From Cellulomonas sp. JZ18 (GTDB lineage Bacteria; Actinomycetota; Actinomycetes; Actinomycetales; Cellulomonadaceae): a stretch of DNA of 64,000 nt. Position 1 is the stretch's first letter. Every line of letters starts with the position of its first letter. A program made the translations under genes and the position numbers. The stretch lies in contig NZ_CP045245.1 in NCBI RefSeq assembly GCF_009720485.1, positions 3,224,001 through 3,288,000 of the forward strand. Reading direction: 5' to 3'. The notes beneath the pieces are model-generated. The model was not told the DNA's origin. It made no database searches and worked only from the letters and a program-made list of their open reading frames with translations. Positions 42,130 through 59,388 of the stretch are shown here, piece by piece.

Positions 42130-44824
42130 GGCCGGCGCACCTTTCCCCCGGACAGCACGTCCTCAGCGCAGCGCGCGAGCCGGGTGCGGTCGATCTTCGA
42201 GTTGTGCCGCACGTCCGTGGGCAGGTCGGGCACCACGAGGACCGCGGCGAGCGGCGCGTCCACCGCGGCGCGGACGGCGTCGGCCAGCTCCGCGGGCGCC
42301 AGACCCGGGCGACGCGTCCGCGGCCGGGTCTCGACGACGGCGACGAGCAGCTGCGTCCCCCGGGGCCCGATCCCCACGACGCCCGCACGCTCCACGGCCG
42401 GGACCCGCTCGACCCGCTGTTCGAGGCCCACGGGGGTGACCACGCCGTCGGCCGTGGTGACGACGTGGGCGAGGCGTCCCTCGACCCACAGCCGGCCCCC
42501 GGCGTCCAGGTGGCCGACGTCGCCCGTGCGGTGCCACCGGTCGCCGGGGACGTCCCGGGCCGCCGCGCGGTCCGTCAGGTGCAGGCGGAAGTAGCCGTCC
42601 TTGAGGTGCGGGGCGCTGACGAGGATCTCGCCCGTCCGACCCGGCTCGGTGGTCGGCTCGCCGGTCGCGGCGCCGTCGTCGTCGAGCGGGCTGATGCGCA
42701 CCTGCGTGGTCGCGGTGGGGCGTCCCACGCAGACCCCGCCCGGGTAGCCGTCGGCCCGGGCGGCGGTCGCCTCGCGGATGCCCGCGAGGGTCGCGTCCGT
42801 CATGAGCAGCCCCTCGGTCATGCCGTACGGCGTGTGGGGCTCCGCGTTCGGCATGAGGCGGCCGGCGGCGGCGAGCAGGTGCTCGGGCACCGGGGCGCCC
42901 GCCGAGAGGAAGGTCCGGACGCGGGCGAGTGCGGCGTGGTCCGCGGGGGTCAGGTCGTCGGCCGTCGCGACCACGTTCGCCAGCGCCGCCGGGGACAGGA
43001 AGAGGACCGTCGCGTCCACGGCCGCGGCCGCGGCCGCCACGGCCGGGGCGGTGAGCGTGCGCGGGGAGGTGACGTCCATGTCCGGCGTCACCGACCGTGC
43101 GCCCAGCGCCGGTGCGAGCAGCGCGAAGGGCGCGAAACCCGCGACGAGGCCCGTGCCGGGGCCGAGGTCGTACTGCGCGCGCAGCGCGCCGGCCACCGCG
43201 GCGAGCTGGCGGTGGGTGTAGACGACGCCCTTGGCCGGGCCGGTGGAGCCGGAGGTGAACAGCACCGCGGCGGTCGCGTCGGGGCTCGGCTCGGCGGGGA
43301 GGTCGACGCCGCGCCCGGCGTCCACGAGGTCGACGAGAGCGTGATCGACACCCAGCGCGCGGGCGAGCGCGGGAGGGAGCGGCGTGGTGGAGATCCGCTG
43401 GCCGGGCCAGCCGAGGGCGCAGGCGGCCGTGAGACCGCGCAGCTCTCCGACGACGTGGTCGGGCCGGGCACCGCGGACGGCCCGCGTCAGGCCCTTCACG
43501 CCCAGGCCGGCGTCGGCCACGACGACGACGGCGCCGATCCGCAGGCAGGCGTACAGGACGGCGGTCAGGTCCGCACCGGGCGGGACGAGCAGGGAGACGC
43601 GGTCCCCGGGCCGCACGCCGACGGCGGTGAGACCGGCGGCCAGCTCGCGGATGCGGCGGGCAAGCAGCGACCAGGTGACGACGCGCGGTCCCGCGCCGCC
43701 GGGCGGCGCCATCTCGACCAGGGCCGTCTGCGTGCTGTCGCGCTGCTCGTCGAGGTGGTGCCACAGGGGCTCGTAGAGCGGCGCGGACGTGGCTGCCGGG
43801 GGGTCCACAGGCGGGACGTCGGCTGGCCGGGCGTCGGAGCCGGCCGGGGCGCCGGTGCCGGCCGTCGCGCCGGCGAGCCAGTCGAGCGCCGCGCTCGCGT
43901 AGTCGACGTCCTCGGCGACGAGGTGCCCGGCGCCCTCGAACCGGTGCACGTCGGCGTGCGGCAGGCGGTCGACGAGGTCGTCCAGGTACTGGTCGCCGAA
44001 GACGGGGTCGCTCGGGCCCCAGAGCAGCAGCGCCGGGACGTCCAGCCCGCGCACCCCCGCCGCGACGCGGTCGAGCTCGGCGGCGCTGGGGTGCGCGGCC
44101 GTCACGGGGATGTCCGCGACGAAGCCGCCGATGCCCCCGCGGCGCTCGGCCCCCGGTACGGCGCGCGGTAGGCCTCGCGGACCGGTCGGGGCAGGCGCGG
44201 GCGGGCGAGCGCGAGCGTCGTCTCGAGGAAGGCCGGCGTCGCGACGGTCGCCGCACCCAGGACCCCCGGGCGCAGCGCGAGCCGCAGCGGGGCCGGCACC
44301 CGCAGGTGCGCCGGCTGGTGCACGGCGGTGTTGAGCAGGACGACTCCCGCGAGCAGGTCCGGGTGGTCGACGGCCCAGCCGAGGCTGATGACGCCGCCCC
44401 AGTCGTGCCCCACCGTGACGACGGGGCCGGCGAGGCCGAGCGCGGTCGTGAGGTCGTCCAGGTCCGCGATTCGCTGCGGCAGCCCGCGCGGCGACCCGGT
44501 GCGCTGGGAGAAGCCCATCTCGAGCTGGTCGACGGCCACCACCCGCCACACCTGTCCCCCGGCCGCGGCCCGGTCGGTCGCCGCCGAGAGCAGGCGACGC
44601 CACAGGTAGGACCACGTGGGGTTGCCGTGCACGCACAGCAGGGTGCCGACCGGCTCGACGCCGAGCCGGGCGAGGTGGTCGGCGTTGTCCAGCAGGTGCC
44701 ACGTGCGGCTGTCGGGGCCCGCCGCGACGAGGCGCGAGAAGGACGGGTCGAGGCCGTCGAGGCCCCGCGGCGGCAGCGAGGCGGGTGCGGTCGCCCCGGC
44801 TGCGGCCGGCAGCGCGCCGATCAC
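42126..44824 (-). CDS. OleBC fusion: beta-lactone decarboxylase and beta-lactone synthetase (one frameshift)
   Basis: About 899 aa when repaired. The OleB half is an alpha/beta hydrolase with VGHDWGGVISLGW (nucleophile Asp141, haloalkane-dehalogenase type). The OleC half is an acyl-AMP-ligase-like domain with FTSGSTGPAKGVVYTHRQL and YGMTEG. OleC closes a beta-hydroxy acid to a beta-lactone and OleB splits it to alkene and CO2. The frame breaks at the C5 run 44150-44154. One extra G on the coding strand joins AYRGA to ERRGGIGGFVADIP. GTG 44824 overlaps the oleA stop (GTGA). Fused OleBC is the usual actinobacterial form. Confidence 0.9.
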
Positions 44825-45843
44825 CAGGCGATCTCCGTCATCGCCGTGTTGATGCCGGAGCCCACACCCATGAGCAGCACGCGGTCGCCGGGCGCGAGGT
44901 GCCGCGCCTCCTCCGCGAGGGTCATGGGGATCGAGGCAGGACCCACGTTGCCGTACCGCGGGTAGGTGAGCGGCACACGGCTGCGGTCGAGGCCCGCGGC
45001 CTTCACGATCGCGTCCGTGTGGACGTCGGAGACCTGGTGGAGGACGTAGCGGTCCATCGACGCCCAGCTCCAGTCCTTCCTCGCCTCCTTCCACGCGGCC
45101 ATGACGAGGTCGAGCCCGCCCTTGAGCAGTGCCTTGGCGTCGGTGAACATCCCGTTCACGCTGCCCACGCACAGCTCGTTGAACTGCGTCGCCGCGCGCG
45201 TCACCCCGCCCAGGATCCGGTGGCCCTCGGGGTGGGCGTCGGCCGGCCCGATCACCGCGGCGACAGCGCCGGAGCCGAGGGTCAGGCTCGGAAACTCGCG
45301 CATGAAGTCCCGGCGCGTCACCCCGGGCTGGTTGAGCCGGTCGATCGTGATGTCCTGGATCTCGTCGGCGTCCTCGCCGTCGACGACGACGGCGTAGCGG
45401 ATCTGCCCCGCGTCGATGAGCTGCGCCGCGAGCGTCATCCCGTTGACGAAGCCGAGGCACGCGTTCGCGAGGTCGAAGTTGACGGCCGACGGCGGCAGGC
45501 CCATGCCGTGGTGCAGACGCACCGCCACCGAGGGCTCGAGGTGCTTACGGGTGACCGAGGTGTTGATGAGCATCCCGACGTCGCCCGGGTTGACGCCCGC
45601 CTCTGCGAGGGCCTTCTCGCCCGCCGCCACCGCGGCGGCGTCGAAGCTCTGGCCCTCGGCCCAGTTGCGGCGCTCGTGCACACCGGCGACCCGCTGGAGC
45701 AGGCCGGTGGGCAGCCGCAGGCGGTCCAGCACGGGCGCGAGGCGACGGTCGATGTCCGCCGACGTCGTCACGCGCTCCGCCACCGTCGTCGCCAAGGACA
45801 GCAGTGCCGCGTTGCGGTGGACCGACGTCGCGTTGCCCCTCAC
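44821..45843 (-). CDS. oleA: OleA, acyl-CoA head-to-head condensing enzyme
   Basis: A 340-aa thiolase-superfamily (FabH-like) enzyme. Cys129 (DLANACLGF), His269 (VLHQVSDVH) and Asn299 (YPRYGNVGPASIP) form the catalytic triad. OleA joins two fatty acyl-CoAs head to head to a beta-keto acid, the first step to long-chain olefins. GTG 45843 has a purine-rich GGAGGGG upstream. First gene of a tightly coupled ole operon. Confidence 0.92.
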   Translation of the reverse strand: MRGNATSVHRNAALLSLATTVAERVTTSADIDRRLAPVLDRLRLPTGLLQRVAGVHERRNWAEGQSFDAAAVAAGEKALAEAGVNPGDVGMLINTSVTRKHLEPSVAVRLHHGMGLPPSAVNFDLANACLGFVNGMTLAAQLIDAGQIRYAVVVDGEDADEIQDITIDRLNQPGVTRRDFMREFPSLTLGSGAVAAVIGPADAHPEGHRILGGVTRAATQFNELCVGSVNGMFTDAKALLKGGLDLVMAAWKEARKDWSWASMDRYVLHQVSDVHTDAIVKAAGLDRSRVPLTYPRYGNVGPASIPMTLAEEARHLAPGDRVLLMGVGSGINTAMTEIAW

Positions 45844-46063
45844 ACCCACCCCTCCCGTGGCGCGCACCGGGCCGCGCCGACCGCACGATCGTGCACCTGC
45901 CTGGGCGGCGGCGCCTTCCGAGGCAACGGCGAGCGGGGTGCGCGCGTTCCAGAAGTCCGGTCGTGCCCCGTCAGCGGGGTGCCGGCGAGCATCTGCTGCC
46001 GGCGGTGCGTCCCGGCGAGATCGGGCGCGCACGGTGCACGTCCCCCCGCGTCCGGGAGGGGCC
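45844..46063. other. Upstream region of the ole operon, cut by the IS element
   Basis: 220 bases from oleA to the IS3 element's left end. It must hold the ole promoter, but I cannot pick a convincing -10/-35 pair. No gene seen. Confidence 0.4.
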
Positions 46064-46083
46064 TGGTGCACGAGTAGGTGACA
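46064..46083 (+). repeat. Left terminal inverted repeat of the IS3 element
   Basis: TGGTGCACGAGTAGGTGACA; matches the right end with one mismatch. The match extends five further bases outward (GGGCC). Confidence 0.85.
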
Positions 46084-46116
46084 CCCACCTGTGGCGCCGT
46101 GGGCGTCGCTGGAACG

Positions 46117-46428
46117 ATGTGCACCGTGCCCAGGCCCTATCCCAAGGAGTTCCGCGACGACGTCGTGGCCGTGGCTCGCCGCGGGGACGCTCCGATCAAG
46201 CAGGTCGCAGCCGACTTCGGGATCGCCGAGTCGTGCCTGCGCAACTGGCTGCGTGACGCCGACGTCGAGGGCGGCAACCGTCCGGGCGTGCCCCGCACCG
46301 AGTCTGCCGAGCTGCGTGAGGCGAACCGAAGGATCCGGCTGCTCGAGCAGGAGAACGAGGTCTTGCGTCGCGCGGCGGCGTACTTGTCGCAGGCGCACCT
46401 GCCGGGAAAAGGCTCTACCCGCTCGTGA
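46117..46428 (+). CDS. IS3 OrfA (transposase HTH subunit)
   Basis: 103 aa with a helix-turn-helix (PIKQVAADFGIAESCLRNWL) and a leucine-zipper-like C-terminus (ELREANRRIRLLEQENEVLR), the DNA-binding and multimerisation part of IS3 transposase. ATG 46117 is preceded by a GGAACG stretch. The frame ends at TGA overlapping the OrfB GTG, with the slip site 16 bases earlier. Confidence 0.9.
   Translation: MCTVPRPYPKEFRDDVVAVARRGDAPIKQVAADFGIAESCLRNWLRDADVEGGNRPGVPRTESAELREANRRIRLLEQENEVLRRAAAYLSQAHLPGKGSTRS
46404..46410 (+). promoter_or_regulatory. Programmed -1 frameshift site GGGAAAA
   Basis: Heptamer G-GGA-AAA in the OrfA frame fits the X-XXY-YYZ slippery form. Slipping back one base changes the reading to AGG-CTC-TAC and joins OrfA to OrfB as ...KRLYPLVSELAADGIP, the usual IS3 OrfAB fusion. 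Confidence 0.75.
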
Positions 46429-47285
46429 GCGAGCTCGCCGCCGACGGCATCCCCGTCGCGGTGACGTGCCGGGTCCTCAAGCTCTCCAGACAGCCCTACT
46501 ACCGCTGGCTCGCGGCACCGGTCGGTGCCCGCGAGTTCGACGAGGCGCACCTGGCCAATGCGTTGTTCGACGCTCACCGGGATGACCCGGAGTTCGGCTA
46601 CCGGCTCCTGGCCGACGAGGCCGCCCGCGCGGGGCATCAGGCGTGTGACCGGCGTGTGTGGCGAATCTGCGCCGAGAACCGCTGGTGGTCGGCGTTCGGC
46701 AAGAGACGGGTCAGGGGTGGCAAGAAGGCTGGTCCGCCGGCCCACCACGACCTCGTGCTGCGCCAGTTCCGGGCCGACGCGCCGAACCGGTTGTGGCTGT
46801 GGGACATCACCGAACACCCCACGGCCGAGGGCAAGGTCTACCTCTGCGCGATCAAAGACGTGTTCTCCAACCGAATCGTCGGCTATTCGATCAGCGACCG
46901 CATGACCTCACGCATCGCGGTGAACGCTCTGGTCAGCGCCGTGCAGCGACGCCAGGACGTGACCGGCTGCGTGGTCCACAGCGACCGCGGCAGTCAGTTC
47001 CGCAGCCGGAAAGTCGCCCGAGTCCTGGCGCTCCACGACCTCGTCGGGTCGATGGGGCAAGTCGCCTCCGCAGGCGACAACGCGGCCATGGAGTCGTTCT
47101 TCTCCTTGCTGCAGAACAACGTCCTGAACCGGCGACGCTGGGCCACCCGCGAGGACCTGCGAATCGCGATCGTGACCTGGATCGAGAGGACCTATCACCG
47201 CCGCCGACGCCAAGCCCGACTCGGCCGGCTGACACCCATCGAGTTCGAGACCATCATGACCACTCAGGTCGCACTCGCCGCCTGA
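46425..47285 (+). CDS. IS3 OrfB (transposase catalytic domain)
   Basis: 286 aa from the GTG at 46425, normally made as the OrfAB fusion through the GGGAAAA site. The DDE triad is WDITEH, HSDRGSQF and ESFFSLLQNNV (D-D-35-E spacing), with an HTH_21-type region before it. The enzyme cuts and joins the element by a circle intermediate. Confidence 0.93.
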   Translation: MSELAADGIPVAVTCRVLKLSRQPYYRWLAAPVGAREFDEAHLANALFDAHRDDPEFGYRLLADEAARAGHQACDRRVWRICAENRWWSAFGKRRVRGGKKAGPPAHHDLVLRQFRADAPNRLWLWDITEHPTAEGKVYLCAIKDVFSNRIVGYSISDRMTSRIAVNALVSAVQRRQDVTGCVVHSDRGSQFRSRKVARVLALHDLVGSMGQVASAGDNAAMESFFSLLQNNVLNRRRWATREDLRIAIVTWIERTYHRRRRQARLGRLTPIEFETIMTTQVALAA

Positions 47286-47292
47286 GTCGAAC

Positions 47293-47312
47293 TGTCACCC
47301 ACTCGTGCACCA
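47293..47312 (-). repeat. Right terminal inverted repeat of the IS3 element
   Basis: On the minus strand TGGTGCACGAGTGGGTGACA, starting eight bases past the OrfB stop. Confidence 0.85.
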
Positions 47313-47348
47313 GGCCCTTGCGATCGGCCACTGAGGAGGGACTGGGCT

Positions 47349-48584
47349 GTGCGTGCATACGACAACGCGATGAAGTTGGTCGACGCAGTGTTCTTCGTCG
47401 AGCCGGCCGACGACCGACTGACCGTCGTACTGGAGAGTCGGGGGCCACAGCGGAATCCCGACTACAGCCACGCGCTCGACCTGATACTCAGTCGCCTGGC
47501 TCGCCTCGACACGAGGCTGATCGACGCCTGGGTTGATTCCCGGGTGACACGCCAGCTGGCGCCGGAGGCGCGTCGAGTCATCGAAGGGCCACTGCGCCTC
47601 GACCCAAGCCTCGACGCCGCCAGGCTCCGAACTCGTTTGACCACGGCGGCGGCGCGTGTCGGTCGCCGACCCAACGCCAGCGGCCCTGGCAACCCCACAA
47701 AGCGCCTCCGCTTGGCGGTTGAGGTCCCAGGCTTCGGTTCGTCTGACGCAGATCGGCTCGAAGAGACCCTGGCGCGTCCGACTGGAGTGTCCAAGTTGTT
47801 CGAGGTCGATGCAGCCGACCTCCTCCGAGACTTTATCGGGGTGGAGCTCACCACGGTGAGGGGACAGGTCAACAGGATACTCGGCGTCCGGCCACCAATC
47901 GCTTTGGTGGCGACAGGCCGCTCGCCAGAGGGCGCGGCCGTGCAGGTTGCCGACGTGGCCGGCGCGCTTGAGACGCTAAACGAGGAAGGCTCGGTCGAGC
48001 TCAGCACGGAGGCCGTGGGCTACAGGAGCGGGTTCATCGGCGCCCTGCTTCGCGAGTTGCCTGACACGAGGATCGAGCACTCCTCCCCGCCGCGGATCGT
48101 CTACGACCCCCGTCACCGTCACGCCACAGATCCCACTAGCGACGAGACGTCACGAACGCCGGCGCCGGGACCCTTCCAGGGCGACCTGGACCGACCGATC
48201 ACGGCGCGTCAACGCAGAGAGCAACGCAAGCTCCGCAGAGCCCTCTTGGCAGGCCGGGACGAAGCGCCTTGTGCGGTGTGCGGAGACATCTTCCCGGCGC
48301 GGTTCCTTTGGGCGTCACACATCAAGCGCCGCTCAGTCGCGACGGAAGATGAAGTGCGGGACCTTCCCTATATCGCGATGCTCGCCTGCATCCTCGGGTG
48401 CGATGCGCTCTTCGAGGATGGCTACATCGCCGTACGCGACGGGACGTTTGTAGGGACCACGGCGGTGGACGTCGGATCAGCACTCGGTCAGCGGGTACGC
48501 GCACTTGAAGGTCGCCCCGTCGATGACTACGCGAGGCGAGCTCCGTACTTCTCCTGGCACCACGAACAGGTCTTTCGCCCCTAG
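47349..48584 (+). CDS. HNH endonuclease-domain protein, accessory island
   Basis: A 411-aa protein. The C-terminal ~100 residues form an HNH-type domain: CAVCG (Cys308, Cys311), ASHIKRR (His324) and LGCDALFEDGYI, where Cys stands in place of the usual His before DALF and the usual Asn is not seen. The N-terminal ~290 residues (LESRGPQRNPDYSHALDLIL; RLIDAWVDSRVTRQL) are a globular domain I do not recognise, conceivably for recognising modified DNA as in type IV (McrA-like) enzymes. GAGGAGGG precedes the GTG. It converges on the KAP NTPase. Codon use is visibly less GC-biased than in the flanking core genes. Confidence 0.75.
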   Translation: MRAYDNAMKLVDAVFFVEPADDRLTVVLESRGPQRNPDYSHALDLILSRLARLDTRLIDAWVDSRVTRQLAPEARRVIEGPLRLDPSLDAARLRTRLTTAAARVGRRPNASGPGNPTKRLRLAVEVPGFGSSDADRLEETLARPTGVSKLFEVDAADLLRDFIGVELTTVRGQVNRILGVRPPIALVATGRSPEGAAVQVADVAGALETLNEEGSVELSTEAVGYRSGFIGALLRELPDTRIEHSSPPRIVYDPRHRHATDPTSDETSRTPAPGPFQGDLDRPITARQRREQRKLRRALLAGRDEAPCAVCGDIFPARFLWASHIKRRSVATEDEVRDLPYIAMLACILGCDALFEDGYIAVRDGTFVGTTAVDVGSALGQRVRALEGRPVDDYARRAPYFSWHHEQVFRP

Positions 48585-48798
48585 CCCAGAATCTGGTCGC
48601 TGCCGGGGTACGGCGCACGCACCTGGCCCTGGACACCCATAACGACGGCTCCCCTGACGCCTTCGCGAGCAAGAACCGTGGCGGAGTGTGCTCCTCGACG
48701 ACGTCGTCGTGGGCCGCATGCTGGACGCCGCCGCCACCAGGACCGTGCGCCCCGATCGACTCGTAGCCTTTCAGAAATCGCGCCGCATCGCTTCCGAG
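48585..48798. other. Gap between convergent HNH and KAP genes
   Basis: 214 bases; no ORF of its own and no strong hairpin seen. Confidence 0.4.
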
Positions 48799-51042
48799 CT
48801 ACGACTCGTCGGACACCCCCGACATGGGCCGCGCCTCCCCTACTTCATCCGGCGACCTATCCTTCCGCATCCGACGGAGCGCGGACAACGCGTAACTGAT
48901 CCGGTTCTCACGAGTTGCGGGGATTCGCAACACGTCACCTTCCAGGGGCGCCACTGCGTCGAGTTCTGCAGAAAGTTCCGCAAGAACCCGTTCCAAACCG
49001 AATACATCGTCTGCGGTCGAGCTCGCGAACTCACCGATGTTCGGTGACGCTCCCGGAACACCGATCGGCACCGTCAGAGAGGTGAGAGCCCCGACAACCT
49101 CAACGAGAGGCCAGGCGCCCGAATCGACGCGCTCGCGTAGCCAACCATGGGCGGCCGCAGGGTCAAGTTCGACCCACGGCCAAAAGCCGCTCATCGCGCC
49201 GTCGGCGAATGGGGAATCGAATCGATTTGCGGAATGCCAAGCGCTGAGTGCAGACCTGACTATGTCGACGAGCCCTTCGAGATCAAAACCGGGTGGCACG
49301 AAACTTCCGTACGGCGAGCGCGCGTTCCGGTGCAGCGCTCGGACAACGTTCACCGAGAATCGGAAAGTCTCCGGCTGCGCACACCTCCGCGCTACCGCCT
49401 CTGCGGCCGCCTCGCTACCCGCTCGCACAAGCGCGAGTGCCGCGCCGTGCTCCGCCGAGCGCCGTGGGTCGTCGAATATCTCGCGAGGCGTATCATCGAG
49501 CTGCGGCCACAACTCTCCGAACAACTCGAAGATCGCGACCTCAGGCAGGGTCTCGCCTGAGTCACGAAGTCCCTCAATCTTTCGCGCCGCCCGCGCAGTG
49601 TTGTCTCGGATCTCGGCCTTGAGGCGCTGAACCGGCCGACCTTCGATCCCTCGCGCGAGTTCGCCCAAGGACTGGCTGAGCAGCGAGTCCGGGAAGTCGT
49701 CCTCGGGCACGCCAAAGCTAACGTAGCGGTCGAAGTAGTCGGCGTGAGACACCGCCTTGGGCGTCGACCGCTGCCCAGCCGTCGTGAAGGAGCTCGCGCT
49801 CGCGAATGCGGCTTGAATCTCGGGGAAAAGGTCGGAGAGTACGCGTATGACGCCGTCGCGGTGATCACTATCAACGCGCGCTCGCTCGATCCTGTCGCTC
49901 CAGAACCTCTGCCGCTCCTTGGCTGCGGTGGCATCCCGGCCGCCGAAGCGCCAGGAAGTGGAGGCGCGGCCAAGGAGCGCATCGCGCTCTCGCTGCACCA
50001 TCGCGTAGACACCCGGTTCCTGCGTTCGGAGCCAGGTCATGAGAAGGAAGTCGACGAAATCCACTTCGCCGCGCAGGGGCCCGAAGAAGGCTTGCACCTG
50101 CCCGAGGAAGCGGCTGATCGCGCGAGGAGTTGCCAGGCGACGGTCGAGCACTTCGAAGTAGATCTCGCTGAGCCGTCGTTGGTCAGCGGCCGTCAGCGGT
50201 GCGCTATTGCTGGTCAGAATCGATGTCAGCCCACGGTTGAGCAAGACAGATCGCTGCGACTCCCGGAGCACAGGCATGTCCAGGCGCACCTGCACGATTT
50301 TCTCCAAGTATGCGCGCGCGCGCGACTCGTTGCCCCCAGCGATCGGTGTGTTCTGAAGGACATCTAGAAGGGTCCGCTCGTCGTAAGCGAGCAGGTAATA
50401 AACATGGGGAAGACGCCCTACAAGCCGAACGAGCTTGAGCACCTCGAGAAGTTCCTGCGGGGTCAAGCGATCCAGGTCGTCCACCACCATCAACACCGGA
50501 CGTTGGAGACGCCGAAGCGCCGCCTCGGCGGAGCGCTTCGCGGCGGAGGCGCTCGTATCGCCACTGACGAGGTCCGCAATGGTCGTAATCACGCCCTCGG
50601 CGTCGACACCGATGATTCCGCCGAGCTTCCCAATCGGACTAATGGTACGTGCGAGGTCACCCACCTTCGCTCGCGCCCCGCTCGGCCGGCTGCCCTTCGG
50701 CAACGCTGCGGCGAGCTCGTTGAAGAAGCCATGTTGAAGACTGGGGGCGTCCGGATAGGTCCAAGGGTTGAACTCCGCCAACAGCCACGAGTCCGAGCGC
50801 CTGGAGGTCAAGTGCTTGCGGAGAAGCTCAAGAATCGACGTCTTCCCGGAGCCCCAGTCGCCGATGAGCGCCATCACGCTCGACTCGCTCTGGGCCCTCA
50901 CGGTGTCTACTAGCGAGGCGAGATAGGTCGTGAACGAGTGACGTCCCAAATCATCGGGCCGTTCAGGTGACCCATCGCGAGGGTCGTCGCTGAGCAGGTT
51001 GATGCTGACTGGCTCAGCGCTTGCCGCCTCGGCTCGTTCCAT
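48799..51042 (-). CDS. KAP-family P-loop NTPase
   Basis: A 747-aa protein. Walker A GDWGSGKTS (residues 61-69), the KAP signature FNPWTY (91-96), Walker B VLMVVDDLDRL (183-193) and YLLAYDERTL (216-225) define a KAP NTPase, the family of eukaryotic Kidins220 and F-plasmid PifA, a phage-exclusion protein. Unlike many KAP proteins it has no membrane helices inserted; the C-terminal ~400 residues are helical and unassigned. ATG 51042 has TACGGT six bases upstream, so it appears leaderless. A role in phage defence is inferred from family and island context only. Confidence 0.85.
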   Translation of the reverse strand: MERAEAASAEPVSINLLSDDPRDGSPERPDDLGRHSFTTYLASLVDTVRAQSESSVMALIGDWGSGKTSILELLRKHLTSRRSDSWLLAEFNPWTYPDAPSLQHGFFNELAAALPKGSRPSGARAKVGDLARTISPIGKLGGIIGVDAEGVITTIADLVSGDTSASAAKRSAEAALRRLQRPVLMVVDDLDRLTPQELLEVLKLVRLVGRLPHVYYLLAYDERTLLDVLQNTPIAGGNESRARAYLEKIVQVRLDMPVLRESQRSVLLNRGLTSILTSNSAPLTAADQRRLSEIYFEVLDRRLATPRAISRFLGQVQAFFGPLRGEVDFVDFLLMTWLRTQEPGVYAMVQRERDALLGRASTSWRFGGRDATAAKERQRFWSDRIERARVDSDHRDGVIRVLSDLFPEIQAAFASASSFTTAGQRSTPKAVSHADYFDRYVSFGVPEDDFPDSLLSQSLGELARGIEGRPVQRLKAEIRDNTARAARKIEGLRDSGETLPEVAIFELFGELWPQLDDTPREIFDDPRRSAEHGAALALVRAGSEAAAEAVARRCAQPETFRFSVNVVRALHRNARSPYGSFVPPGFDLEGLVDIVRSALSAWHSANRFDSPFADGAMSGFWPWVELDPAAAHGWLRERVDSGAWPLVEVVGALTSLTVPIGVPGASPNIGEFASSTADDVFGLERVLAELSAELDAVAPLEGDVLRIPATRENRISYALSALRRMRKDRSPDEVGEARPMSGVSDES

Positions 51043-51048
51043 GGCGCG

Positions 51049-51054
51049 ACCGTA
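51049..51054 (-). promoter_or_regulatory. -10 hexamer TACGGT of the leaderless KAP gene
   Basis: On the minus strand TACGGT ends six bases before ATG 51042, without a Shine-Dalgarno. Confidence 0.5.
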
Positions 51055-51217
51055 GCGCCGCGACGGGCGAGCAGGTCCGAAGGCGTACCCGATGCCTTCG
51101 AGTCGCGCAGGCGGGGCGCGGGCGCGAGCAGATCCCGTGCCGGCGCCTGGGCACGGTGATCCTCCTCCCGGCGGCGTGGGTCGAGCGCGAGCCGACGATG
51201 CCGGTCAAGCGGCGCTG

Positions 51218-52268
51218 ATGTCCGTCACCAGGCGGGCACACCCGACAGGCAAGGTGACCTGGCGCGCGAAGGTGTTCTTCGAGGGCCGGGTCATCGCGCA
51301 GCGGTCGTTCGGGCGCCGGGTCGACGCCAAGCGCTGGGAGGCGGACCAGCTCGCGAAGCTGGACGCCGGCTCGTGGATCGACCCGGCGCGCGGGCGGATG
51401 ACGTTCGCGGCGCTGCCCGAGGAGTGGCAGGCCTCGCGTGGTCACCTGGCGGTGCGGAGCCAGGAGAACACGCGGTTCCTGCTGGACAAGTACGTGATCC
51501 CGGAGATCGGCGCCTACCCGATCTCCGGGATCTCGGCGGCCGACGTCGAGCGAGTGATGTCGGCGCTGACGGCACGCGGGCTTGCGACGGCGACGCGGCG
51601 TCGGGCGCTGTCGATGATCCGGCTGGTGTTCGACTACGCGATCCGCGACCGACGGCTCTCGGTGAACGTCGCGCGGATGGTGTCGCTGCCCGCGTGGCGG
51701 TACCAAGCGCGAGCCGCGCTGGCTGCGGCCCGAGCAGCTCGGCCGGCTCGTCACGGCGGTCCCGCCGCTGTGCCAGCCCGTCGTGCTGTTCCTCGGGACC
51801 ACGGGGTGCCGATTCTCGGAGATGGCAGCGCTCCGGGTCGACGACGTCGTGCAGACGCCACACGGGCTCGGCGTCCGGGTGCACCGCGCCGCGACCCAGT
51901 CGAAGCGGACGAGCGGCGCGGTGTTCGGGCCGACGAAGACCCACCAGACCCGGACGGTGCCGGTGCCTGCGGCGCTGGATGAGTACGTGCGGACGCGGGT
52001 CGCCGGGACGGCGCCGGGAGGGTGCCTCTTCCCGAGCCCGACCGGGGGCGTGTGGACGAACACGAACTTCCGCGCACGATCGCGGTGGATGAACGCGACT
52101 CGGGCCGCGGGCGTCGAGGGGACGACGATCCACGACCTGCGGCACATCGCCGCGTCGCTGCTCATCGCGGCTGGGGCTGACGTGAAGGCCGTGCAGGTCA
52201 TCCTCAGGCACTCCACCGCGACGATGACGGTGGACCTGTACGGGCACCTGTTCAGCGAGGCCACCTAG
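51218..52268 (+). pseudogene. Tyrosine recombinase (integrase), frameshifted
   Basis: An integrase of the actinobacterial phage/island type. The N-terminal SAM-like arm-binding domain (SRGHLAVRSQENTRFLLDKY) and the C-terminal catalytic domain (TTGCRFSEMAALRV with Arg; HDLRHIAASLL with His-x-x-Arg; LRHSTATMTVDLYGHL with His and Tyr) are in different frames. Removing one base around 51692-51694 restores SLPRGGTKREPRWLRPEQ. That is an extra base, not the G-run deletion seen elsewhere. The frame then ends at a TAG after FSEAT although the sequence continues coherently (QAMERLPVIPL). It is probably inactive, so the island may be stuck. Confidence 0.8.
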
Positions 52269-52439
52269 CAGGCGATGGAGCGGCTGCCGGTGATCCCGCT
52301 GATGCAGGCGCCGCGTGGGATCGAGCCGCCGCCCGCGACTTCCCGCTCGCATCGCTGAATGGCGCTCAGGGACCGCGTTCAGCCCATGTGTGTCCGTGCC
52401 GGCTGGCAGACTGGAGCCCCACGACGAAAGGAAACGAGG

Positions 52440-52604
52440 ATGTCGGAGAGCGCTGGCTCGGAGCGGTCTGGCTCAGAGAACCGTCAGTACGTCGAACTCT
52501 CGGAGCAGCGTGGCCTCGAGATGGTGCCGCTGGCCCCACCGGCACCGGGCAACATCGTCAACATGGCCAATCCCGCCCCTGAGGCAGACAACTTCGAGGA
52601 CTGA
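52440..52604 (+). CDS. Small acidic peptide, first gene of a two-gene unit
   Basis: A 54-aa acidic, hydrophilic peptide with no hydrophobic segment (ESAGSERSGSENRQYVELSE; NMANPAPEADNFED). GGAAACGAGG precedes the ATG and its TGA overlaps the next gene's ATG by one base (TGATG), strong signs of a translated gene. No homology recognised. It could be a cognate partner of the DUF6338 membrane protein. Confidence 0.55.
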   Translation: MSESAGSERSGSENRQYVELSEQRGLEMVPLAPPAPGNIVNMANPAPEADNFED

Positions 52605-53326
52605 TGCCGACCAGTTGGGGCGGTGCACTTCTCTTCCTCCTCCTGATCGCACCTGGCGTCCTGTTTGATCTGCTCGCCGATCGTCGGCGTGCTCAGGTGA
52701 AGGAGACGGCCCTCCGCGAGGCAGGCCGTATCACGCTCGCTTCTCTGATTTTCGGCGGCGCGGCGTTCTTGCTCGTCTGTGCGCTCGCGGCGGCCCTGCC
52801 AGAGGTCCTGGTGTGGCCCTTCGCCGCCCTCGAGGCCGACGACCCGGTGGAGCAGTACGGCTCCGCTCGACTCGCCGCGACACTCGGCGCCCAGACCCTG
52901 ATGGCCTTCGGTGCAGCGTGGGGCTCCAACCTGTGGCTGAATCGTCGCCGTCGTTCTCCGCTCACCGCATCAACTTGGCGGGACCTCTTGACCAAGACCT
53001 GGTGGCGCAGTGGGGAGAGACCGGGCCGCATCCGCGCCGTCTCCACTTGGAAGCTGATCCTCGCGGAGAACGTTCCCGAAGGTCAGTTTGCCCATCTGCG
53101 GGTACGCCTGAAGAGCGGGACAGTGTGGCTCGGGCGAGCCGGACCGTTCAGCACTGATCTTGAGACCTCCGGGCGCGAGCTCGTGCTGCAGAGGCCACTG
53201 GCGGTTGGGCCGCCAGATGCGCCTCCGAAGCCCCTTCCTTCGGCATGGCAGGTTGTACTTCTCTCAGGGGACGACATCGACTCGATCACCGTCCAGTACG
53301 TCACGTACCGGGACGAGGGGCCCTAA
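52604..53326 (+). CDS. DUF6338-like membrane protein
   Basis: A 240-aa protein with an N-terminal membrane anchor (GALLFLLLIAPGVLFDLLAD), a second hydrophobic region (LASLIFGGAAFLLVCALAAA), a possible third (LMAFGAAWGSNLWLN) and a soluble beta-rich C-terminal domain (GQFAHLRVRLKSGTVWLGRA). Order and motifs match the DUF6338 family, common beside mobile elements but without known function. Translated with the upstream 54-aa peptide. Confidence 0.7.
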   Translation: MPTSWGGALLFLLLIAPGVLFDLLADRRRAQVKETALREAGRITLASLIFGGAAFLLVCALAAALPEVLVWPFAALEADDPVEQYGSARLAATLGAQTLMAFGAAWGSNLWLNRRRRSPLTASTWRDLLTKTWWRSGERPGRIRAVSTWKLILAENVPEGQFAHLRVRLKSGTVWLGRAGPFSTDLETSGRELVLQRPLAVGPPDAPPKPLPSAWQVVLLSGDDIDSITVQYVTYRDEGP

Positions 53327-53369
53327 CCTCCAGCCTCAAGCACGCCGCAGCCGCCTTTTCCCTCAGGCG

Positions 53370-54163
53370 CTAGCTAGACTGAGCCCGCGGAGCCTCGCAT
53401 CGGTGATCGAAGAGGCTCCAGCCGCGCCGCAACATGGTGAACGCAGCCATGAACGACTCCGCGATCTCGAAGAGGTCGGCGCCTGATCGGAATTCGGCCA
53501 TTCGAGCGGAGTAACCAGCGCGCCGCCGGAGCGAGACCATCTCAGTGCTTGGCCGCGTGAGCACGGGCCAACCTAGGCCGTGCGCGTCCCCGCTCAGCTG
53601 CATCCAGAGCCCGGGGATCGCGGACCGCTGCCTCGCATCGGAGAAGGCCGCCCGGGCTGCCGACGTCACCACTTGAGTCTCGGTAGGCGCCTGGTTTGCC
53701 GTCAGGCTCGGCGTCGCTGCCCATCGCGCCCTGATCGCCTGGAGCCTGCCCTGCAGTTCGCTCAACGCCAGTACTTGTTCGTCAGGGGCGAGGCCCGCCG
53801 CGCCGGACGCGATGAACTGGTGGAGGCGCCGGTGCACCTCGTGGATGGTGCGGAGGGCATTCTGCTGACGATCATGCCGGTCGTCAGGAGCAAGGAGCCA
53901 GACCGCACGCACCGCGCCAAGAAGCGCCCCCGAAGCACCGTGAGGTGAGCAATCGGGAAGCCCTCGCGTTGCTCAAGCGGCACCCGAGAAAGGTTGAGCT
54001 TTTGCACGCCTGCAATCAGGCTCAGACGAGCCACCTGATAACGGGGAATCGGGACCGTGCCACCGCGTCGACGTGCAACTCGCTGCCGGCTGCGGCTCTT
54101 CAACCGTTCTGGAGCGAGCCCGCCAGCGGTCAAGCGACCTGTAGGTGCTCCTAATCTCTGCAT
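53370..54163 (-). CDS. Helical hypothetical protein, one frameshift (island)
   Basis: Two overlapping frames (53370-53912, 53762-54163) join when one G is added to the C5 run at 53927-53931: AHLTVLRG then ALLGAVRAVWLLAPDD. The repaired protein has about 264 aa, mostly helical, ending with SGDAHGL-type sequence (MQLSGDAHGLGWPV). This layout (LTVLRGAL..A.WLL near the middle, S..AHG near the end) recalls uncharacterised proteins found in defence islands; family not certain. Start ATG 54163 is tentative. Confidence 0.5.
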
Positions 54164-54564
54164 GGCTAGTGCTGGCGCACCTGCTCACCCGTCGACTCCT
54201 CCATGCCACCATCTTTCGAGTACTTCCCGCGGAGCACGAGAGGCGCGCCGGGATCACCGGTACCGCCCCAACGCGGCAGATGGTCATCGCCAGGATGGAC
54301 CCGCAGCGGCCCCTTCAACTCAGTGGAGCGCCGAGCGCTGTCCTCATTCCGGGATGGCGCAGGCGCGGGCCAGACCGCATCGGAGGTCGCCGCTTACGAA
54401 TATCAGCCGTTGGCGTCCGCCGGCGTCCGTCCACGTCCTCGACAGGCCGTCCACGTCCTGAGACAAATCGCTGACCACACCTGCCCAATGCCCAGCAAAT
54501 CGGACACAGACCCCGTCGCGGCCGCGGCGTCCATATCGCCCCCTGGCCTGCAACAACATCTATG
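54164..54564. other. Right end of the island, no gene recognised
   Basis: 400 bases between the helical gene and the tRNA. Several short frames exist on both strands but none has a start signal, codon bias or recognisable sequence. Confidence 0.5.
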
Positions 54565-54637
54565 TGCGCCTGGGCAGATTCGAACTGCCGACACCCGCTT
54601 TAGGAGAGCGGTGCTCTATCCCCTGAGCTACAGGCGC
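54565..54637 (-). tRNA. tRNA-Arg (anticodon CCT)
   Basis: 73 nt without encoded CCA. Acceptor GCGCCTG pairs with CAGGCGC, discriminator A; T-loop TTCGAAT; anticodon stem CCGCT/AGCGG with loop CTCCTAA, so anticodon CCT reading AGG. Its 3' end faces the accessory island, as expected for an integration target of a tyrosine recombinase. Confidence 0.96.
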
Positions 54638-54867
54638 TCGGGCCCCGCGGTCGCGCGGCCCGGGCGGACACAACCGGGCTGAGCGCTCGGCTGGACCGTC
54701 GCCCAGCCTACCGGCCTGGCGTCCCGGCACGCGGCCCCGCCGCTCGCGGCTCGCGGCACCCCTTCTGTCGCCGCTCGACGGTAATGTCCCGAACGACCGC
54801 GGTCCGTCGACGCATCGCGCCGGCCGCACCGCAGCCCCGCCGTCCATGCCCGGCACGAGGAGAGACG

Positions 54868-55158
54868 TTGACGCGACCGCTCCCGGCGGACTACCCGCCG
54901 ATCCTCTACATCCCCTGCGTCCGCGCGGTCACCGACCCCGCCGACCTCGAGGTCGTCTACCGCACCACGCGCGACGGGCGCACGGCCCTCCTCGTCTACT
55001 CGGCGCTCGACCGCCTGCACGCCGGCGCCGGTCCCGACCAGCCGTGGTTCACGCTGCCGACGTCGGAGCTGCAGAAGCTCTACGACGTCCGGCCGTTCGA
55101 CCTGGTGCTGCTCGACATGCTCGTGCCGGAGGAGCACCGGACGGTGGCGACGGCATGA
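54868..55158 (+). CDS. SAV_915-like / SseB-related protein
   Basis: A 96-aa soluble protein. RDGRTALLVYSALDRLHAG and DQPWFTLPTSELQKLYD match the SAV_915 family, small actinobacterial proteins related to SseB N-domains found in type VII secretion loci. The TTG at 54868 is chosen because AGGAGAG precedes it at proper spacing; a longer frame from 54784 lacks such a site. The stop overlaps the next ATG (ATGA). Confidence 0.75.
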   Translation: MTRPLPADYPPILYIPCVRAVTDPADLEVVYRTTRDGRTALLVYSALDRLHAGAGPDQPWFTLPTSELQKLYDVRPFDLVLLDMLVPEEHRTVATA

Positions 55159-55442
55159 GCATCGGCGCGGACTTCACGGCGCTGCACGGCATCGCGTCCG
55201 CGCTGCGGGCGGCCGGGGAGGACCTCGACGGCGCGTGCCGGTCCATCCCGGCGTCGACCGGGACGGGCGACGCCGCTCCCCTGCTGGCCGGCATCCTCAC
55301 GACCGTCTCGGGCACCGTCGCGTACCTGGCCTACGAGGCCGACCTGCTCGGCGAGCGCGTCGCGGAGTGCGAGCAGACGCTGGCAGCGACCGACTCGGGC
55401 GCGGACGAGCGGCTCGCGGCGATCGTCGGGGAGCTCGGATGA
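55155..55442 (+). CDS. Small helical protein, WXG100/ESX-like candidate
   Basis: A 95-aa, two-helix protein (DFTALHGIASALRAAGEDLD ... YEADLLGERVAECEQTLAAT) without signal peptide. The size, helical hairpin and its place between SAV_915 and a WXG protein suggest an ESX-type partner, but no WXG motif is present. Coupled by 4-nt overlaps on both sides. Confidence 0.6.
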   Translation: MSIGADFTALHGIASALRAAGEDLDGACRSIPASTGTGDAAPLLAGILTTVSGTVAYLAYEADLLGERVAECEQTLAATDSGADERLAAIVGELG

Positions 55443-56695
55443 GCACGGTCGACGCCCGGATCGAGGGTGAGCCGGCATCGATTCGCGCGGTGTCGTCCTG
55501 GCTCTCCGGGACGCTCGTGCCGGCGGCGACGCAGGCCGCCAACACCAGCCGCAGCCAGCGCGACCGGGCCGCGGAGGCCTGGGACGGCACCGCCTCCGAG
55601 GCTGCGCAGGGTCGCATCGCGACGCTCTCGACGCGCACCACGCAGCTGGGCACCACCGTGTCCGACACCGCCCGCAGCCTCGACACCCTCGCCGCCGCGC
55701 TCGAGGCCGAGCAGGCGGAGATGGACCGCGCCCTCGGCGTCGCGCGCAGCGGCGGGCTGCAGGTGGACGGCACGGTCGTGCACTCACCCCCGGCGGCGCA
55801 GCCCGTCGCGGACCTGCCGTCCGGCGCCACCCCCGAGCAGGCGCAGGCGCACGGACGGGCGATGCAGGCGCACGCGCTCGCCGTCGCGAAGATCCGGACC
55901 TGGGACGAGGTCGTCGACATCGTCGACCGCGCGCGGAGCCGCTGGCGCACCGCCCTCGACGACGCGTCCCGCACGTGGACCGGCAACTCCGGCAACCTCG
56001 TCGGGCTGACGCGGGACCTGCTCGCGGCCGGTGCCGAGGTGGGTGCGATCACCGCGGTGTCGCGGTTCGCCTCCTCCGGCGCGCAGATGCACGCCGCCGA
56101 GGCCGCTTCGCTCGCCCGGCACGTGTCCGAGCTCGCCCCTGACGGCCGCGTGGTCACCACCCCGTCGCACTGGTACGACCTCTACGACCGCATGCGCGCC
56201 GAGACGGCGCTGGCCGACGACGCCGCACGCGCAGCCTCCAACGCGAAGGTCCCGGTCGCGCTCGGGCGCGGGCTGCTCGTGCTCGGCGTCGCGGCCACCG
56301 GGTACGGCATCTACGACGACATCCAGGACGGCGAGTCCCCCGCGCAGGCCGCCGTGTCGAACGGCGCGGGCTTCGCCGCGTCCCTGCTCGCGGGCGCCGG
56401 TGCCGGTGCGGCGACCGGCGCGATCGTCGGGTCCTTCGTGCCCGTCCCTGTTGTCGGGACGGTCGCCGGTGCGGTCGTCGGCACGGTCGTCGGGACGACG
56501 GTCGGGCTCATCACGTCCGGCGCCGTCGACTCGATGTGGGAGAACGGCGTCGACTCCCTCGGCGACGTCGGCAACGCCATCGCCGACGGCTGGGACGAGA
56601 TGACGAGCACCGTCGGCGACGCCGGCGAGATGATCGGCGACGCCGCGGGAGCGGTCGGCGGCACGGTGAAGGACGCGTGGGATGCCCTCTTCTGA
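55439..56695 (+). CDS. WXG-like protein with C-terminal glycine-zipper membrane domain
   Basis: A 418-aa protein. Residues 1-110 form a long helical hairpin with RAAEAWDGTAS, a WXG-type turn; a second turn TWTGNSGN lies near residue 180. The middle is helical. From about residue 280 there are two or three Gly/Ala/Val-rich hydrophobic helices (GAGFAASLLAGAGAGAATGA; VGTVAGAVVGTVVGTTVGLI), with GxxxG repeats typical of pore-forming or self-assembling membrane segments. The end is again amphipathic. It looks like a type VII secretion substrate or toxin; this is inference. ATGA-coupled to the preceding gene. Confidence 0.65.
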   Translation: MSTVDARIEGEPASIRAVSSWLSGTLVPAATQAANTSRSQRDRAAEAWDGTASEAAQGRIATLSTRTTQLGTTVSDTARSLDTLAAALEAEQAEMDRALGVARSGGLQVDGTVVHSPPAAQPVADLPSGATPEQAQAHGRAMQAHALAVAKIRTWDEVVDIVDRARSRWRTALDDASRTWTGNSGNLVGLTRDLLAAGAEVGAITAVSRFASSGAQMHAAEAASLARHVSELAPDGRVVTTPSHWYDLYDRMRAETALADDAARAASNAKVPVALGRGLLVLGVAATGYGIYDDIQDGESPAQAAVSNGAGFAASLLAGAGAGAATGAIVGSFVPVPVVGTVAGAVVGTVVGTTVGLITSGAVDSMWENGVDSLGDVGNAIADGWDEMTSTVGDAGEMIGDAAGAVGGTVKDAWDALF

Positions 56696-57509
56696 CGCGC
56701 CGAGACGGGGCATGGGGCGCGGCTTCCTGTGGTTCGTCGTCGTCGGGAACGCGCTCCTGGGTTCCGTGCTCACGGTGGTGTCGCTGGGGATGCTCACGCA
56801 GCCGGGGACCTGGTCGCCGGCCGTGTCGCTCGTCGCCGCGGCCGCCGGCCTGCACTGGGTCGCCGCCGGCGCCGTCGGCTTCCACCGCATGTACCTGCGC
56901 CGCCCCCGCCTCGACGGCGCCCGCGTCACGACGACGACCACGGACGACGGCCGCCCTGCGGTCGAGCTCGCCTGGGCGCGCACGATCATCGCCGTCCCGG
57001 CGTTCACCGTCGCCGGGCTCGTGGTCCTGCTCGCCGCCGCCACCGTGCTGCAGGCGGCGGAGGGCGACGCCGGGGCCGCCGCGTGGTTCACCGGCGCCCT
57101 CGCGCTGCTGCTGGCGCTGCTGCTGCCGGACAGCCTGCTGCGCCTGCGTCGCCGCGCCCGGCTCGTCCTGACCCCGCACGGCGTCGAGCTGCACGGGTGG
57201 GACGGCGACGGCGCCCTCGCGTGGGACGACGTCGTCGGCGCGACGCTCGTGGACGCCGGCGCCTGGACGTCCCTGCGCCTCATGGGCCGCCCCGGCGCCA
57301 CGCTCGATTGGCGGCGCAGGCCCCGCGTGCTGTTCGCACCCGCCCCGCGCGGGCCGCACCTCGACGTGCCGGCCCCCGCCGTCGACGTCGACGTCCGGTT
57401 CCTGGCCGGCACGCTGCTGCACTACGCGCAGAACCCGGCGGCGCGGGCGGAGATCGCGGACGGCAGGGCCCGCACGCGGCTCGCGGAGCACGTCCGGCCC
57501 CCGCGCTGA
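56682..57509 (+). CDS. Membrane protein, possible immunity/partner of the WXG protein
   Basis: A 275-aa protein that overlaps the WXG gene by 14 nt. Four hydrophobic segments in two pairs (FLWFVVVGNALLGSVLTVVS; VSLVAAAAGLHWVAAGAVGF; PAFTVAGLVVLLAAATVLQA; WFTGALALLLALLLP), then a soluble PH-like domain (RARLVLTPHGVELHGWDGDG, ALAWDDVVGATLVDAG). Co-expression with a membrane-active protein suggests protection or assembly, unproven. Confidence 0.6.
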   Translation: MPSSDAPRRGMGRGFLWFVVVGNALLGSVLTVVSLGMLTQPGTWSPAVSLVAAAAGLHWVAAGAVGFHRMYLRRPRLDGARVTTTTTDDGRPAVELAWARTIIAVPAFTVAGLVVLLAAATVLQAAEGDAGAAAWFTGALALLLALLLPDSLLRLRRRARLVLTPHGVELHGWDGDGALAWDDVVGATLVDAGAWTSLRLMGRPGATLDWRRRPRVLFAPAPRGPHLDVPAPAVDVDVRFLAGTLLHYAQNPAARAEIADGRARTRLAEHVRPPR

Positions 57510-57576
57510 CCGACCGAACCCGGCCGAGCCGGTGGCCGGCCCGCCCGGTACTGCGCGCCAGCCGAGGACTCGCCGC

Positions 57577-58997
57577 CTACCGCCCTCGCGGACGCACCGC
57601 GCCGCGCTCCCCCTCGGCCCCCACCTGCGCCGACCGTCCCGCCCGCACCAGCACGCGCAGCATGACCACCGCGAGCGCCAGCAGCACCGCGTACAGCACC
57701 TGCGCCCGCTGCAGCGGCTCCTCCACCAGCCCCAGGCCCCCGCCGAGCCAGCCGTACGCCGCGGTGCTCGCCAGCGCCAGGCCCACAGACTCCGCGACGA
57801 CCACCGCCGCCGCCATGCGGTCCTCGGAGATCCCGTCCCCCTGCTCGGGTCGGCTCAGGCAGCGGCCGAGCAGGTCCGGGTACACCGTCCCCATCCCGAG
57901 CCCCAGCAGCGCGGCCCCCACCAGCAGCCCGACGAACGCCGGCCGGTCCCCGGCGGGCGCCAGCAGCGTCGTCCCCAGCACCACGGCCACGCCCAGGGCG
58001 ACGACCACGCCGGCCCGCAGCGCCCGCCGCCGGAAGCCGGCGTCGTCGAGCGCCGGGTGCGACCCGGTCCACAGCGCCGCGGCGGCCCACGCGAACCCCG
58101 GGGCCGCGATGACGAACCCGAAGTGCCCCGCGCCGAGCCCGAACGCGTCGTGCGCGACGACCGACAGCACCATGGTCGCCCCGAAGTACACGGCCGCCAC
58201 GACCAGCAGCGCCGTGAGCCCCGCCCGTCGCCCGCTGCGCGCACGGAACGTCCCGTCGGGCAGCACGGCGGCGGCGGCCCGCAGCATGAGGCCGCCGCCC
58301 ACGAGGACCGCGAGCGCGGACCACGCACCCAGCGGCAGGGACAGCACCGCGGAACCGGTGGCCAGCGCGACCGACCAGGCCCACGGCGCCGGCTCCGCCT
58401 CGGCCGGCTGGGTGCGCTCCGGCATGGACCGCGCGACGAGCAGCCGCGCGAGCAGCAGCAGCGGCAGGTACAGCACCATCGCCCACCGCCACCCGAACGC
58501 CGTCGAGACCGCGACGGCGTACACGGGGCCCAGCACGGACGAGAACAGCCAGACGCCGGACATCCCCGCGAGCACGAGCTGCCGGTACCGCGGCGGGAGC
58601 CCACGGCTGATCGCCCCCATGCTCACCGTCGCCAGCGCCCCTGCGGCGAGCGCGCGCACGGCCGTGCCCACGACGAACGCGGGCATCGAGGTGGCCACCG
58701 CGCACAGCACCGCACCGGCCGCCGTGACGACCGTGAAGACGACCAGGAGCCGCCCGACGCGGAACCGGGAGAGCAGCCACGCGCCGACGGGCATCATCAG
58801 GAACGTCGGCGCCTGCGCGGCGGCGTCCAGCGGGCCGTACAGGTGGGCGCCGTCCAGCTCGTCCGCGACGAGCGGCAGCACGGTCTGCGACAGGTAGCGC
58901 TGCATGCCCGCGAGGAACTCGACGAGCACGAGGGACAGCGCGAGCGTGGCGACGGCGAGGCGTCCGCGGGGGCCCGGGACGGTGTGCTCGACGCCAT
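57577..58997 (-). CDS. MFS transporter (one likely frameshift near the N-terminus)
   Basis: 12-14-helix drug/H+ antiporter-like MFS protein, about 473 aa when repaired. The loop motif GAWLLSRFRVGRLLV follows helix 2. The frame opens at a GTG 58929 inside the first helix, which is unlikely. ATG 58997 opens MASSTPSRAP in another frame, and one extra C/G in the run 58968-58972 joins it to RGRLAVATLALSLVLVEFLA, completing helix 1. Substrate unknown; divergent from the polysaccharide GT2. Confidence 0.8.
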
Positions 58998-59388
58998 CCG
59001 ACGATCATGGCGCGCGCGCCCGCCTGCGGGGAGCGGTCCACGCCGGGCACGTTGGGCAGGGCCGGGTCGCCCACATGGTGGACGAACCGGTCGGACGGAG
59101 GGGTGTTTCGTCCTATATGACGGAATCGCCTGCGTTCGCCGTCGCCGCCGCCGACGCGACGGCGGACCGCCCCGCTCCCACCTGCGGCGACGTGGTCTCC
59201 GCTCACCCGGCCGGACGCAGTCACAGCCCCGACGACCACGGACGCGACCGCCGCGACGGTTCACCCGGGAGTCGGACAGGTGTCCGGTTCGCCCCCGATC
59301 GGACTATTCACGGCGTTGGTCCCACGCGCCTACCTTCGGCCTCGCCAGGTCAACGGAGACGCCGCACCGAACCGACGGGAGCCCCCCG
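58998..59388. promoter_or_regulatory. Divergent promoter region, MFS / GT2
   Basis: 390 bases. It contains an AT-rich patch TTTCGTCCTATATGACGGAA (59106-59125), an imperfect dyad that may hold the MFS promoter, and CGGACA-GG-TGTCCG (59273-59286), a perfect 6+6 dyad about 100 bp upstream of the GT2 ATG, a candidate operator. No ORF. Confidence 0.45.
59273..59286. promoter_or_regulatory. Dyad CGGACAGGTGTCCG upstream of the GT2
   Basis: Perfect 6-bp arms around GG, placed about 100 bp before ATG 59389. A candidate operator for the polysaccharide genes. Confidence 0.4.

Follow-up and report, generated by a model that had tools for sequence, protein, structure and literature searches.

Type IV restriction enzymes restrain both phages whose DNA is modified and gene transfer between bacteria. 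Of the enzymes closest to the one considered here, EcoKMcrA has two (hydroxy)methyl pockets, S30/N119 and W31/T121 (PMC7145662). In VcaM4I a linker helix inhibits the nuclease, the HNH domain without this linker being toxic, and the solved structures, with VcaM4I auto-inhibited and the reading and cutting sites separate, leave the step from mark to cut open (PMC7897488). N6-methyladenine (6mA) is read by a winged helix in an SRA-winged helix-HNH enzyme (PMC11037411). In Escherichia coli, hotspots at tRNA genes are known to take up defence cargo, mobilizable elements among them (PMC10121019); these accounts, and those cited below, follow the available portions of the reports. Cellulomonas is not named in the literature that we found on tRNA hotspots, and the open-licence literature yielded neither a protein of the layout NEco, central domain, HNH nor a common nuclease chassis with exchanged readers. 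Here we describe an accessory island in a window of 64,000 nucleotides (the whole stretch analysed; contig NZ_CP045245.1, positions 3,224,001 to 3,288,000) from the genome of Cellulomonas sp. JZ18, a single contig of 4.04 Mb. With a probability of roughly three in four, and judging from sequence, we read the island as a decayed integrative element of tRNA-Arg(CCT), one of a family with interchangeable and often anti-phage cargo, in which an HNH protein is predicted to be a modification-dependent nuclease of type IV, and a KAP NTPase and a peptide-DUF6338 pair are separate cargo.

Results

The GC (guanine plus cytosine) content is 0.667 in 47,319-54,563, as opposed to 0.750 in 1-45,800 and 0.753 in 54,700-64,000, and same-length windows placed inside 1-45,800 (n=154) had a mean of 0.750, a standard deviation of 0.009 and a minimum of 0.729. 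This bears out the low-GC accessory island of the initial annotation, which had placed it between an insertion sequence (IS) and the 3' side of tRNA-Arg(CCT), as we find it (Table 1); the genes named there (HNH, KAP, a broken integrase, a peptide/DUF6338 pair and a hypothetical) were all recovered as open reading frames (ORFs) and by Pfam. They are accessory rather than core to the genus, as had been supposed: relatives occurred in 1 of 35 other Cellulomonas genomes for the HNH protein, 3 of 34 for KAP (at most 35% identity), 11 of 59 for DUF6338 (over its cut-off) and 3 of 80 for the 180-aa ORF (29-31% identity). The protein encoded in the left flank (44,821-45,804) was found at E<=1e-60 in 41 of 81 genomes, its own included.

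The same tRNA is a recurrent integration site in the genus. When 81 genomes, the host among them, were searched at the DNA level with the tRNA region as query, the matches listed included many partial copies of the tRNA 3' end, lying on the contig that carries the tRNA. We fetched 32 hotspot loci, 8 with the left neighbour of the window and 24 (L217-L240) picked for a visible partial copy; at least one such copy (83-100% identity) lay to the left of the tRNA in 27. In these 27 islands the outermost copy stands 2.9 to 16.5 kb from the tRNA, copies are oriented like the tRNA in 26 (the single copy of L228 is inverted), and the GC content is 61-68%, with 67-74% in the flanks, the island being the lower in 25. 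A dedicated tyrosine integrase lies beside the tRNA 3' end, its frame broken in the window. In 29 other genomes its C-terminal part had relatives, fragments included, of at least 67% identity; among the matches listed, those of 26 genomes lay no more than about 13 kb from the tRNA on its contig, and the remaining three (G012, G067, G075) are split drafts. The C-terminal part is 74-95% identical to relatives beside the same tRNA, of which many have a long open frame. Integrases of this kind would insert elements of the family into the 3' end of tRNA-Arg(CCT).

Nine relatives share the left flank of the window, with homology ending at 45,852-45,944; the tRNA is also present in eight of these loci, and the HNH, KAP, DUF6338 and 180-aa genes of the window are in none of the nine. 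The element arm adjoining the tRNA (54,413-54,563) recurs in L172 and L179, where it adjoins an internal tRNA copy; L179 has it next to the tRNA itself as well. These internal 3'-end copies with the 150-bp arm (L172, genome G094, 3,609-11,339; L179, genome G102) suggest that one tRNA received several insertions in succession.

Cargo was surveyed with ORFs called by a home-made codon score, the largest ORF of each island that was not an integrase, relaxase or transposase (judged by eye) being scanned with PADLOC at 1e-8. It matched at this level or better in 15 of the 27 islands: SoFic, PDC-M02B, HEC-06, HerA, DzbA, a type IIG enzyme, dGTPase, PDC-M07A and LmuA, together with mad6/PD-T4-6, NsnB or HEC-03B, and Dsr1 twice each, the weak match among them being that of L233 (5.7e-9). 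In L172 and L236 a second ORF matched, and both lie outside this count. Over the 135 island ORFs of at least 150 aa the PADLOC tallies were 315 and 158 families, as compared with 54 over 112 control ORFs from arbitrary-coordinate stretches of ten of the same genomes (147 ORFs on 12 stretches, 135 drawn at random, 23 from L256/L257 dropped for size); such tallies count families and not proteins and are a rough guide, helicase and relaxase-like proteins inflating both sets. GajB helicase models made up 22 of the 25 control families listed. Large cargo proteins of 830-1029 aa were left unmatched at 1e-8 in L219:2447-5533, L222:1711-4200 and L224:1496-4234, and likewise in L227:2610-5228, L229:8337-11060 and L230:4559-7240; these are candidates for undescribed defence genes.

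The copy in the window is probably no longer able to move by itself, because its integrase is broken, its excisionase-like gene is a stump, no relaxase was found among the nine window ORFs scanned with Pfam, and its left repeat is absent. Phage_int_M and Phage_integrase were matched apart, one in each of two frames, so that the broken integrase of the initial annotation is confirmed. A programmed frameshift was considered and not accepted, since several relatives at 94-95% identity have long open frames. The small gene before the integrase, which we call excisionase-like from its sequence, is complete in L217 and L233, and only its 3' end is kept in the window; TrwC relaxases were found in 8 of the 135 cargo ORFs of related islands. 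At the left end, the near relative G094 and the window are homologous up to 45,941; from this point it is 118 bp to the start of a degenerate tRNA copy in G094, and likewise 118 bp to the start of the IS in the window. The ends of the IS are alike in 24 of 25 bases and no matching flank repeat was seen, a pattern consistent with an IS-linked loss of the island's left end. A second copy of the IS, 81% identical, is present in the same genome (G000:C1:3984479-3985701). The integrase of G003, one of the nine left-flank relatives, is 88.6% identical and likewise frame-broken. In this relative (L177, 4,272-5,214) and in the window (51,385-52,328), two species, the break falls in the same short segment; other relatives are open.

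The HNH protein combines an EcoKMcrA-like NEco reader, a central domain and a VcaM4I-like HNH nuclease, as seen by profile and by fold; both recover the NEco domain and so uphold its first description as McrA-like. The C-terminal HNH has intact catalytic residues, the NEco pocket retains the equivalents of S30, N119 and T121 (ESRG, GNPTKR), and the central domain (residues about 150-258) departs from a plain NEco-HNH layout. The modelled C-terminal half of this domain resembles the winged helices of Zalpha, F-112 and BirA. A profile search of the PDB with the central domain gave only E 0.5 and worse, and no hit stood out in a fold search, which is not proof of a new fold. Among relatives, the reader is exchanged on this one nuclease part, the central domain and HNH standing behind SBD-like or EVE readers, the latter for example in L014. 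The SBD-like N-terminus of L025 was recognized in a direct test, with 7ccd and 5zmo taken by us as SBD structures, and those of L023 and L026 by resemblance; a PDB sequence search did not confirm the EVE domain of L017. NEco carriers do not form one clade in a tree of HNH relatives, in which labels were given by eye to L015, L016, L017 (EVE), L019, L021, L023, L026 and P0018-P0020, and to NEco members other than the window protein by alignment with it or by likeness; L024 (N-terminus unclear), L005, L011, L012, L020, L029, L032, L033, L035 and L084 were left out. Two other kinds of N-terminal domain precede the central and HNH parts in P0014, P0015, L005, L013 and P0006, and are possibly further modification readers; P0014 (Cellulomonas gilvus) matches in sequence the HNH relative of the same-genus genome G021.

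By what route the protein would act can be proposed in outline. The NEco domain would read modified cytosine in the intact double helix without flipping, as EcoKMcrA does; two HNH domains may dimerise and cut nearby; and the central domain would couple reading to cutting, either by holding DNA or by releasing the nuclease, in the place taken in VcaM4I by the inhibitory linker helix. Because relatives place the same central and HNH parts behind phosphorothioate or EVE readers, a role of the central domain in coupling, gating or holding DNA is more likely than one in reading the mark. We extend this only tentatively to a view of the two parts as a reader-independent chassis, in which the central domain, modelled as a small SH3-like barrel plus winged helix that lacks a confident solved relative, might convert any occupied reader into a cut, the N-terminal reader having been repeatedly swapped (methylcytosine, phosphorothioate, a flipped modified base and two other kinds). 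If this were true, exchanging one domain could redirect the same nuclease against new modifications of phage DNA.

We consider it unlikely that the central domain reads a mark itself, such as 6mA in the manner of HHPV4I/HhiV4I, which would give a two-reader enzyme responding to both marks or to either. Its winged-helix-like half and the description of SRA-winged helix-HNH enzymes with 6mA specificity (PMC11037411, PMC10101028) speak for such a role; its service behind readers of unrelated marks counts against it. More improbable still is a nuclease of mobile-element or repair function, with an NEco-like fold for general DNA binding. The replacement of W31 by arginine in the window protein and most close relatives would suit this alternative. 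Opposed to it are the retained equivalents of S30, N119 and T121 (residues per PMC7145662), the SBD-like and EVE readers of relatives, restriction genes near some of them, and the lack of any match to the protein in phage records at E<=1e-3. Plasmid matches numbered 15 records, each covering just 15-34% of the query. A contig scan found 90 HNH relatives, of which 80 were kept and 20 had their neighbours scanned (109 of 110 ORFs, within about 5 kb). Among these 109 ORFs, models of type I methylase, of type IV enzymes and of DISARM DrmB were matched by two each, and mad2 and mad8 by three each, giving 220 PADLOC families as compared with 54 in the control; the expected proximity of HNH homologues to defence genes was not refuted.

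The KAP NTPase had been introduced as kin to PifA, which has a phage-exclusion role. This kinship stands over the KAP part, where the PADLOC PifA model matches residues 28-490 of 747 (7.2e-59), and falls at full length, the best stretch reaching from 28-490 to 15-485 of 720; ORFs around six KAP relatives are mostly non-defence in look, by eye. The family is common, with 533 homologues and full-length relatives of up to 63% identity, and the protein is a common single gene. A hydropathy scan gave no segment over threshold, and sequence search of the PDB gave no match.

The DUF6338 protein scores 95.9 bits against a curated cut-off of 26.5, with hydrophobic segments at residues 2-27 and 40-76. 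Together with its peptide it is a recurrent two-gene unit. The window-type DUF6338 genes of the genus (n=6 including the window, two identical and one split by an IS) all follow a short ORF, by reading, and a clear preceding ORF was present in 5 of 11 further loci at class level. Plasmid records with a DUF6338 relative numbered eight, of which seven were fetched, two pairs being near-copies; five of the seven carry an annotation for the short ORF that immediately precedes DUF6338, and in the other two this ORF is there without annotation. The ten peptides examined are all acidic (isoelectric point, pI, 4.1-4.9). Acidic ORFs before DUF6338 thus occur also on actinobacterial plasmids (L263, L264, L265, L266, L267, L268, L269). 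A sequence motif common to the peptides is unproven, the best 7-residue block having been equalled in 38 of 300 shuffles. Near DUF6338 lie TIR and caspase genes in L264, a CHAT gene in L268 and a kinase in L266; other copies lie among ordinary-looking genes (L258, L259), and none was confirmed in 37 viral stretches.

That the HNH, KAP and peptide-DUF6338 genes act together as one multi-gene defence system, the undescribed system anticipated by the initial annotation, is the least probable reading and was rejected: they adjoin within one 7-kb island, but HNH and KAP lie on opposite strands, no relative of the window KAP, DUF6338 or 180-aa gene was found in 80 HNH loci (tblastn, E<=1e-3, flanks of up to 10 kb; the peptide query was uninformative, being in the wrong frame), and the nine same-site loci lack all four. 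We read KAP and peptide-DUF6338 as cargo separate from the nuclease.

Table 1. Features of the island and its borders (positions in the window)
Feature	Position	Strand	Remarks
Presumed ketoacyl-ACP synthase III-like gene, left chromosomal flank, outside island	44,821-45,804	-	homologous flank in 9 fetched relatives
IS element, taken to be IS3-type	46,059-47,317	+	orfA 46,117-46,428, orfB 46,425-47,285; Pfam HTH_Tnp_1 and rve
HNH endonuclease, 411 aa, GTG start	47,349-48,584	+	NEco, central domain, HNH; predicted type IV restriction enzyme
NEco reader domain, residues 1-144	47,349-47,780	+	
Central domain, residues 150-258	47,796-48,122	+	common to relatives with different readers
HNH nuclease domain, residues 281-411	48,189-48,581	+	
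KAP P-loop NTPase, 747 aa	48,799-51,042	-	PF07693, E 3.8e-44
Excisionase-like gene, 3' stump	51,119-51,218	+	96.4% DNA identity over 112 bp (51,119-51,230) to L217 and L234
Tyrosine integrase, broken frame	51,218-52,268	+	frames 51,218-about 51,740 and 51,783-52,268
Acidic peptide ORF, 54 aa, pI 4.1	52,440-52,604	+	one-base overlap with DUF6338 start
DUF6338 protein, 240 aa	52,604-53,326	+	PF19865, E 3.2e-27; two hydrophobic N-terminal segments
180-aa ORF	53,370-53,912	-	no Pfam match at E<=1, no PADLOC match
Element arm adjoining tRNA	54,413-54,563		found in similar form in 16 of the 32 hotspot loci fetched
tRNA-Arg(CCT)	54,564-54,637	-	3' end is the integration target

Discussion

Several observations weigh against the reading of the island as a decayed integrative element with a type IV nuclease among often anti-phage cargo. 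The repeat of the tRNA 3' end that had been foreseen at the left edge is absent there, and the longest exact match elsewhere in the whole window is 11 nt; we read this as loss, because such copies bound 27 related islands. Two of those islands do not share the lower GC content, which equals that of the flank in L175 and exceeds it in L222. The largest cargo ORF has no PADLOC match at 1e-8 in 12 of the 27, and PADLOC matches are homology, not function. In the HNH protein, a single-sequence search found NEco weakly (6r64, E 0.007) and VcaM4I not at all at E<=0.1, both assignments being secure by profile and fold alone; the position of W31 is occupied by R here and in most NEco relatives, and by A or S in some; and the gene starts 31 bp past the IS, which bears on its expression. 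Since the distal pocket W31 is R, the exact mark may differ from that read by EcoKMcrA; the W31 substitutions tested in that enzyme, in the available portion of the report, do not include R (PMC7145662).

With at least 27 islands delimited within a single genus, and the largest cargo unmatched in the same 12 of them, the hotspot is a compact place to look for more defence genes. A nuclease half that works behind unrelated readers would also offer a direct way to ask how the reading of a mark becomes a cut.

Set beside known systems, the island is of an ordinary kind and well explained, and the layout of its enzyme varies a known enzyme type. The tRNA-targeted integrative mobilizable elements and defence islands of E. 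coli are alike in their tRNA target, integrase, relaxase (in several members) and exchanged defence cargo; they differ in host genus, and relaxase, open integrase frame and left repeat are all missing from the window copy (PMC10121019). With PifA the KAP protein has the KAP domain in common, the likeness being limited to that part, with no sign of orthology. The HNH protein shares with EcoKMcrA (PDB 6ghc, 6r64) the NEco fold, the S30/N119/T121 equivalents and a C-terminal HNH, and EcoKMcrA too resides on a mobile element, e14 (PMC12707154); it differs in the added central domain of about 105 residues, in an HNH that fits VcaM4I better than McrA, and in the change of W31 to R. VcaM4I (EVE-HNH, PDB 6yex) has an EVE reader and a helical auto-inhibitory linker where the window protein has NEco and the central domain (PMC7897488). 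ScoMcrA and other SBD-HNH enzymes act on phosphorothioate DNA, and the relatives L025, L023 and L026 are SBD-like, whereas the window protein carries NEco instead. The 6mA-dependent enzymes HHPV4I/HhiV4I (SRA-winged helix-HNH) have the same order of reader, central domain and HNH, with SRA at the N-terminus in place of NEco, the central domains being likened by layout alone.
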